In this document: positions 1,997 to 4,222 of the stretch, one piece after another
How the letters are laid out: each line of letters begins with the position of its first letter
Position numbering within the stretch: position 1 is the first letter of the stretch
From: Chlorobiota bacterium
GTDB lineage: Bacteria; Bacteroidota; Bacteroidia; Bacteroidales; JAADGE01
Direction: 5' to 3'
DNA length: 64,000 nucleotides
Assembly: GCA_013152535.1 (NCBI GenBank)
Contig: JAADGE010000038.1
Coordinates: 1 to 64,000, forward strand
The notes under the pieces: model-generated
Databases searched by the model: none
What the model was told of the DNA's origin: nothing
Seen by the model: the letters and a program-made list of their open reading frames with translations, nothing else
Position numbers and translations under genes: made by a program

Positions 1997-2407
1997 ATGA
2001 AACAAATTAAATTATTATCCGTTCTTGTAATTTTTTTAACTTTAACGGTTTCTTGTAATAAAACACCGCATGACAAATTAATCGGAAAATGGGATGTTAC
2101 TAAAATTGTGAATTCTACTATGACGGAACAAGACGATATTGATTTCTTTAATGAAATGAATAAGGATGTTTTAGACAAAGAAGTTTTTACTTTTACGAAT
2201 GATAAAGTAACAAAAAGTTTTCCTGAAAAAACTGAAGGGACTTGGGAAATTGATGAAAAAGGTAAGATTCTTACAATTGATTGGGGAGAAAATGATAATT
2301 ATTCTCCGCATACTTTTGTTGTTGAAAAATTAACTTCAGACAGTCTTATAATTCAAGAAGATTTTGAAGAATTTTTAATGACAACATATTTTTCAAAAAT
2401 AAAATAA
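1997..2407 (+). CDS. Lipocalin-like domain lipoprotein
   Basis: Lipobox LTVSC; LIGKWDVTKI...VFTFTNDKV...EGTWEIDEKGKILTI is the GxW plus beta-strand pattern of small lipocalin-like proteins. Confidence 0.6.
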   Translation: MKQIKLLSVLVIFLTLTVSCNKTPHDKLIGKWDVTKIVNSTMTEQDDIDFFNEMNKDVLDKEVFTFTNDKVTKSFPEKTEGTWEIDEKGKILTIDWGENDNYSPHTFVVEKLTSDSLIIQEDFEEFLMTTYFSKIK

Positions 2408-2437
2408 TTTTTGTATAAAGCATCAGTACATAAATTA

Positions 2438-2508
2438 TAAATACCGACGAAAAGATTGTGGTACGATTTGAATTTTCGATAATATCGTAAATTTGTATGT
2501 CGGTATTT
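2438..2508 (+). other. Long intergenic hairpin (terminator/attenuator candidate)
   Basis: aaataccgac (2438-2447) pairs with gtcggtattt (2499-2508); internal tacgat (2462-2467) pairs with atcgta (2484-2489). Confidence 0.5.
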
Positions 2509-2562
2509 TCTGTCTGACTACAGACGGATTGTGTGATTGTTGAAAAATATTAAAACAGACTT

Positions 2563-3546
2563 ATGAAAGATATTTTTGTCAGTTTTTCTAAAGACGATAA
2601 AAACTTGTCAAAAAAGTTGGTATCTAAATTAGAATCTGAAGGTTATTCTTGCCGAGTGTTACCGAGAGATAATTCATACGGAAAAGCGGAGGAATTAATC
2701 GCCGAATGCAAAATTTTTATTTTGGTTTTATCTTCGGCTGCAGAACAATCGAAGCAAGTTTCGGAACAATTGAAAAATGCTGTTGAGAAGCACTGTTTCA
2801 TAATTCCTTTTAAAGTCGGGAAAATTGATAATAATTTGGGTATGCAATATATGCTGAACGAATTGGAATGGGTGGATGCGTTCGGCGACGGTTTTGACGA
2901 AGCTTATGATATTTTATTAGAAATTATTGAAGAAATAACCGAAGGGAAGAAAACAAAAAGTATTAATAAAACGAAACAGCTTTCGGAAGCGAGAGGTTTT
3001 GAATTAAAAAAACCGCATTTATACGGAATAATCGGTGTGTTGGCGGTTTCACTCTTATATTTTGCATTTTTCAATAATTCCGGTATAAAAAATAATGCTT
3101 CACTCACAAATAAAAATAATTTATCTCAATCTGCTGACCGTATTATTCCTGATATTGTAAGTGAGAAACTAAAACCCGAAGAGCAAAAGATAGTAGGTTC
3201 GTGGAAAATGACCGGTTACGAAGACAGCAGGCAAATGACACCGGAAGAGCGCCGAGTTACCAATCAGAATATTGAACAAATGAAGCAAAGGGTTTTATTA
3301 ACTTTTAATGCCGACAGAAGTTTTGCACGTGCCGGATTTACGCAATATGTTCAAAAAGGATATTGGGAATACGATGCAGCTAAAAAAAAGATTTATTTAA
3401 TTCCTGAAAATACCAATAAGAAAGAAGAAATTAATATTATTGATTTAACGGATAAAAAAATGACTTTTGTGGTTACCGAATCGGTAGAGACAAGTCCCGG
3501 AAATAAGGAAATAGTAACAACAAAATTGAGTTTTGAGAAACAATAA
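2563..3546 (+). CDS. TIR-domain protein with single TM helix and C-terminal lipocalin-like domain
   Basis: MKDIFVSFSKDDKNLSKKLVSKLESEGYSCRVLPRD...ILVLSSAAEQSKQVSEQLKNAVEK..FIIPFKV (TIR_2-like); TM LYGIIGVLAVSLLYFAFF; C-terminal IVGSWKMTG...LLTFNADRSFAR...KGYWEYDAAKKKIYLI. Confidence 0.72.
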   Translation: MKDIFVSFSKDDKNLSKKLVSKLESEGYSCRVLPRDNSYGKAEELIAECKIFILVLSSAAEQSKQVSEQLKNAVEKHCFIIPFKVGKIDNNLGMQYMLNELEWVDAFGDGFDEAYDILLEIIEEITEGKKTKSINKTKQLSEARGFELKKPHLYGIIGVLAVSLLYFAFFNNSGIKNNASLTNKNNLSQSADRIIPDIVSEKLKPEEQKIVGSWKMTGYEDSRQMTPEERRVTNQNIEQMKQRVLLTFNADRSFARAGFTQYVQKGYWEYDAAKKKIYLIPENTNKKEEINIIDLTDKKMTFVVTESVETSPGNKEIVTTKLSFEKQ

Positions 3547-3597: not shown

Positions 3598-3957
3598 TTA
3601 AGCAGCAGTTTGTGCTTCTTTAGCAGCAGGTCCTTTATATTCAGCTTTTCCAAAACCTAAAATAGGCCAGAAGATAGGAGCTAAGAAAATTAATCCTAAA
3701 GTAAAACCGACCTCTTTTCCGAAACTTTTTGAAACAAGATTTATCACCCATACGATGAAAATATAGTTTACAAAAGGAATTAAGAAAAGAATAAACCACC
3801 ATAAAGGTTTACCTGTTATTTCTATCAGCACGATAAGATTGTAGATAGGTACAATAGCTGCCCAACCCGGTTTACCGGCTTTAACAAAAACTTTCCATAA
3901 AGCTGCAATTTCAAAAACGAGAAAAGCAAGATAAATAATAATGACTACATATTTCAT
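3598..3957 (-). CDS. DUF5684-like small integral membrane protein
   Basis: AALWKVFVKAGKPGWAAIVPIYNLIVLIEITGKPLWWFILFLIP, a conserved membrane family. Start at internal Met (3957) preferred. Confidence 0.7.
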   Translation of the reverse strand: MKYVVIIIYLAFLVFEIAALWKVFVKAGKPGWAAIVPIYNLIVLIEITGKPLWWFILFLIPFVNYIFIVWVINLVSKSFGKEVGFTLGLIFLAPIFWPILGFGKAEYKGPAAKEAQTAA

Positions 3958-4222
3958 AATAAATAATTTAAAAAAATGCCTACTCTTTTCAGTTTTCGGC
4001 TTCCCTGATTTATCCAACCAAATATAGAATTTATATTTTAAATGATGAAATTTTTTAGATAAAAAATTGAAGTCTCTGCTTTTTACTATTTAGTCCTAAT
4101 AGACAAAAAGGAGGCTGAAAAGTTTGTTAGCCCTTATATTTATTAGCTTTCTGATGTTCTGTTTTTTAATCTAGTTTTTAATCTTTATATTTGTATAATT
4201 GTTTCACTTAAATTTTTATATT

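Follow-up and report, generated by a model that had tools for sequence, protein, structure and literature searches.

A TIR protein with a predicted periplasmic lipocalin-like domain and its lipoprotein neighbour: a possible envelope-sensing pair in Bacteroidales

What does a TIR domain do when it is joined through a single transmembrane helix to a lipocalin-like domain, and encoded next to a second lipocalin-like protein? This arrangement occurs in a 64,000-nucleotide stretch of a Chlorobiota bacterium genome (GTDB order Bacteroidales; contig JAADGE010000038.1, positions 1 to 64,000), hereafter the window. In the literature cited here, bacterial TIRs of known role are treated as NAD-cleaving enzymes of immunity or virulence, and a first-pass annotation of the window had pointed to an NAD-consuming immune effector, while marking the defence role as conjecture. 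Our analysis bears out the layout and common fold that the annotation described, together with conservation of the pair and of the architecture, but not the NAD-consuming effector. The reading that we favour, with somewhat less than even confidence, is that the pair forms an envelope-sensing module: an inner-membrane sensor or adaptor whose TIR acts by assembly rather than by NAD cleavage, and whose periplasmic domain works together with the lipoprotein. Because the amino acid typical of toxic TIRs has been lost, the protein looks less like a weapon against phages than like a sensor built into the envelope.

The upstream gene of the pair (1997..2407, forward strand) encodes a lipoprotein of 136 amino acids. 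A hydrophobic leader is followed by the predicted lipidation site, Cys20 (codon 2054..2056, forward strand), which is invariant in 16 aligned lipoproteins. The mature part matches the Pfam family Lipocalin_4 (E=2.9e-4) at 22.1 bits, 0.3 bits under the gathering score, and its AlphaFold model (mean pLDDT 84) has as its best PDB match in Foldseek 4qrl, a Bacteroides lipocalin-like protein.

The downstream gene (2563..3546, same strand) encodes 327 amino acids, in which Pfam and AlphaFold/Foldseek agree on a TIR domain followed, after a single transmembrane helix, by a lipocalin-like domain at the C-terminus, just as the first-pass annotation had read this frame. TIR_2 (PF13676) matches residues 4-119 (2572..2919) above its cut-off (E=1.7e-13), and Lipocalin_4 (PF13648) matches residues 210-302 (E=9.4e-5, 23.7 bits against a gathering score of 22.4) within a domain that spans residues 204-327 (3172..3543). 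In the AlphaFold model the C-terminal barrel scores about 80 and the linker with the transmembrane segment is poorly predicted; the score of the TIR, taken per ten-residue block, is roughly 45-78 and falls toward the end of the domain, a moderate confidence that reflects modelling without the deeper family alignment (A1). Foldseek matched the model to the TIR structures of RPS4, RUN1, AbTir, SPARTA and SARM1, so that profile and fold both place the protein in the TIR superfamily, and to the lipocalin-like structures 4nw4, 4kh8 and 4gzv. A small antiparallel barrel resembling solved lipocalin-like proteins is thus predicted for both the lipoprotein and the C-terminus of the TIR protein. The two models have the same order of elements (a long strand, a helical insert and seven strands), and hhalign aligns the two domains over 92 columns with a probability of 97.9% (E=4e-13); judged by this profile comparison, they are homologous. 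A flagellin hook IN match (6xi1) from PDB sequence searches was discarded as a set of weak repeats, none individually significant, as were matches to Peptidase_S49 and RNase HII that fell under their cut-offs.

The orientation of these domains can be predicted from charge. Residues 152-170 (3016..3072) form the only hydrophobic segment of the TIR protein, with eight K/R before it and three after, and of the 32 family members 31 share this excess before the segment (the remaining one is a tie). This places the N-terminus and the TIR, by prediction, in the cytoplasm and the barrel in the periplasm, giving the layout of a receptor (outer sensor domain, one transmembrane helix, cytoplasmic TIR) that had been proposed for this protein. 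Independent placement of the C-terminal type of domain outside the cytoplasm comes from proteins in which it is carried without the TIR and transmembrane parts: in genomes G182, G076 and G077 it sits on a protein with a lipoprotein signal at its start, and in genome G016 a secreted protein (L053:3531-4310) carries two copies of it and no TIR.

The same architecture was found in other genomes, as the first-pass annotation had suggested should be looked for. The search among relatives recovered it within the genus and family of the window, and an order-wide search added further families, giving 32 proteins, all of which were aligned, from eight families of one Bacteroidota order; the named relatives are labelled Bacteroidales and are mostly metagenome bins. 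TIR_2 matches 26 of the 32. Outside the order, a 396-genome sample across the phylum gave TIR-only matches and no full architecture.

The gene is not a decaying one. In close pairs dN/dS is low in both the TIR (0.09-0.15) and the lipocalin domain (0.04-0.15), indicating purifying selection, and reaches 0.16-0.41 in the linker and transmembrane segment. Ten alignment columns are invariant in all 32 proteins, eight of them in the lipocalin domain (G212, W214, Y219, D221, F254, G258, F259 and W268). That clustering is also what one would expect of a quite different arrangement, in which the lipocalin-like domains bind or hand on a hydrophobic envelope ligand, and a degenerate TIR is a mere cytoplasmic anchor or oligomerisation domain without signalling. 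The TIR is indeed degenerate in several families: f56 and f67 have also lost the PRD motif from the BB loop, and the domain in these two and f45 is so divergent that the surfaces through which it would interact may have gone too. In some relatives, as noted above, the lipocalin-like domain is part of a lipoprotein that has no TIR. Against this stand the purifying selection on the TIR within the genus and its retention in every family that has the fused protein. A carrier or structural role is a serious rival, albeit one that we hold to be on the unlikely side.

Is the lipoprotein part of the system? Of 32 testable loci (a set that leaves f71 aside), 26 have its gene immediately upstream of the TIR gene and in the same orientation: this is so in 17 of 18 f1 loci, one of these genes being interrupted by Ns, and in all testable loci of f17, f37, f63 and f56. 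The six loci without an adjoining lipoprotein, found in f45, f67 and genome G015, comprise five from f45/f67 and one from f1. Two genomes of the genus seemed to lack the TIR gene, but in both the lipoprotein gene stands at a contig end: in G007 the opening codons of the TIR gene are still present there, and in G002 the contig stops 97 bases from the lipoprotein, so that the absence from G002 may be only apparent.

The two genes might nonetheless be independent neighbours, lipocalin-like lipoproteins being common in these genomes and adjacency being an inherited order without joint function. Further Lipocalin_4-type lipoproteins do occur elsewhere in the same genomes, the six loci just described do without a neighbouring one, and in the window the genes are separated by a 155-bp spacer with stem-loops. 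However, adjacency persists across families whose other neighbours vary, the spacer measures just 7-24 bp in several genomes, the two domains are homologous, and f37 and f56 have another such lipoprotein downstream. We regard independence as improbable.

Several features of the neighbourhood deserve mention in their own right. Within the window spacer, two neighbouring stem-loops can form at positions 2439-2528 (z-score of -3.5 relative to shuffled sequence); they could serve as an attenuator or terminator between the two genes. The closest relative also has the spacer, with some stem changes, whereas in several other members of the genus it measures just 7-24 bp. The extra lipocalin-like lipoprotein whose gene comes right after the TIR gene in some genomes of f56 and f37 (L082:5034-5630, L090:3452-4018, L051:8023-8670) has a long helical, coiled-coil-like insert between its first strands. 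Downstream of the window TIR gene, a convergent gene (3598-4060) encodes a DUF5684 membrane protein, and its counterpart in the closest relative (L034) a DUF4389 membrane protein; about 60 bases upstream of the start of this gene are nearly identical in the two and single-copy in the genome, and the difference is a gene swap with the 5' region retained. On the other side, a gene (1105-1875) for a methyltransferase whose N-terminal stretch is rich in cysteine is divergent from the pair; it recurs in 11 f1 neighbourhoods and is not beside the pair in other families.

We also looked across families for a conserved third gene that might encode a cytoplasmic partner, and found none; the idea was rejected. 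The flanking genes differ: f63 has an unknown ORF after the TIR gene, f56 has other conserved genes around it, and f45/f67 have a TPR gene. The gene after the TIR gene in f67 and f45 encodes a TPR-repeat protein, on the same strand and within about 65 bp, in five of five loci (L081, L083, L091, L085, L087), and this protein is a candidate cytoplasmic partner in those families.

The active site of the TIR bears on what its output might be. The glutamate in the motif SEQLKNAV, which had been put forward as catalytic, is E68; it lies one residue off the catalytic column and is not conserved, and we rejected it. In an alignment to solved TIRs the column is held by its neighbour, Gln69 (codon 2767..2769, forward strand), whose counterpart is Glu in the TIR-STING protein of a metazoan and Gln in MyD88. 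The window protein thus lacks the catalytic glutamate of NAD-cleaving TIR enzymes. Among its 31 relatives the column reads Q in 16, E in four, L in three, I in two, and A, S, D, N, V and T in one each. As controls we used 40 bacterial TIRs of other architectures, drawn with the same profile and picked regardless of this residue, and all 40 have Glu, as against four of the 31 relatives (Fisher p=1e-15, which overstates independence as the sequences are related). At least 14 changes at this column are needed on the protein tree, so the site has drifted repeatedly. Mutation of the catalytic Glu of SARM1 abolishes NAD cleavage (PMC8635717). Taken with Gln69, this suggests that the window protein most likely does not use the known TIR mechanism to cleave NAD.

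Each family represented by two or more sequences comes out as a single clade in the protein tree, which fits vertical descent. Searches of phage, plasmid and viral-contig collections returned no match, and PADLOC, followed up to E=1, gave no defence model for either protein of the pair; we rejected assignment to a defence system on these grounds. Although many bacterial TIRs act in phage defence (PMC8635717), the fold matches the NADase TIRs AbTir and SPARTA, and three relatives (L045, L046, L050) retain both the Glu and the PRD motif, a phage-defence effector whose periplasmic domain senses infection and whose TIR breaks NAD down or produces cyclic ADP-ribose as a signal is very improbable overall, given a catalytic Glu that the window protein lacks and that varies across the family, no defence model or mobile copies, vertical descent, and linkage to an envelope lipoprotein instead of defence genes; a defence NADase is unlikely for the window member, though it may still fit those three relatives.

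We return to the envelope-sensing module, for which a rough proposal can be made. The upstream gene would supply a lipocalin-like lipoprotein in the envelope, and the downstream gene a single-pass inner-membrane protein with the homologous domain in the periplasm and the TIR in the cytoplasm. By analogy with E. coli CpxA and the lipocalin-like lipoprotein NlpE, the periplasmic domain may respond to the lipoprotein, be it to its amount, its location or a bound ligand, presumably through contact between the two. Clustering would then bring the cytoplasmic TIRs together as the putative output, without NAD cleavage, and the assembled TIRs would recruit a downstream partner, with the signal presumably running from the periplasm inward. 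The basis for this proposal lies in sequence and fold: both domain types, a single transmembrane segment and the charge bias around it, conservation of the pair, loss of the catalytic Glu and purifying selection. More specifically, it draws on an architecture that recurs in 32 proteins of eight families, with the pair in 26 of 32 loci amid varying neighbours; on homologous lipocalin-like domains, an altered catalytic column, selection, and invariant lipocalin columns; and on the occurrence of the domain on lipoproteins without a TIR, along with the precedents of NlpE (PMC6538781) and scaffold TIRs (PMC8635717). Speaking against it are the six loci without the lipoprotein, the diverged TIRs of f56, f67 and f45, and the lack of a conserved cytoplasmic partner gene.

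A bolder version would have the protein as a bacterial single-pass receptor whose TIR, free of NAD-cleaving chemistry, signals by assembly alone and is driven by paired envelope lipocalin-like domains, so that a logic like that of Toll receptors would have evolved in bacteria to sense the envelope. We consider this rather doubtful at present.

How does the pair compare with known systems? Bacterial TIR proteins with many partner domains have been described (PMC7075850), and lipocalin-like proteins are known from Bacteroides (4qrl). A combination of bacterial TIR and lipocalin was not found in the literature searched, which is weak evidence as subscription papers were not covered. The point of note here is a TIR that is widespread, altered at its catalytic site and linked to an envelope module. 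The Lipocalin_4 / DUF5004 proteins of Bacteroidota (4qrl, BACUNI_01346) share fold and family with the lipoprotein and the C-terminal domain; here, however, one copy is fused to a TIR and transmembrane segment and both copies are in adjoining genes. The NADase TIR defence proteins (Thoeris ThsB, TIR-STING, SPARTA and AbTir) have the TIR fold in common with the window protein, which differs in having Gln for the catalytic Glu, in lacking defence partner genes, and in being membrane-anchored with a periplasmic lipocalin-like domain. This argues for caution, in that not every bacterial TIR protein should be annotated as a defence effector.

The closest functional analogy may be NlpE-CpxA of E. 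coli, which likewise consists of a lipocalin-like lipoprotein and an inner-membrane protein with periplasmic and cytoplasmic signalling domains. The lipocalin-like domain of NlpE alone activates the inner-membrane sensor CpxA, as NlpE passes through the inner membrane (PMC6538781). CpxA, in contrast, is a histidine kinase with neither a TIR nor a lipocalin-like domain, and the Pfam search found no match of the window lipoprotein to the NlpE family, its best match being Lipocalin_4. The Toll-like receptors and MyD88 offer a second comparison. A Toll-like receptor is also a single-pass protein with an outer sensor domain and a cytoplasmic TIR, yet its domain order is reversed, its outer domain is a different one, and no adaptor or kinase is known for the window protein; common ancestry is limited to the TIR fold. 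MyD88, like the window protein, has Gln at the catalytic column, and the scaffold class of TIRs works through assemblies (PMC8635717). With a family whose TIR has lost the Glu yet stays under purifying selection, joined to a transmembrane helix and a domain in the periplasm, one could test directly whether TIRs serve in bacteria, as they do in animals, as non-enzymatic signalling scaffolds.
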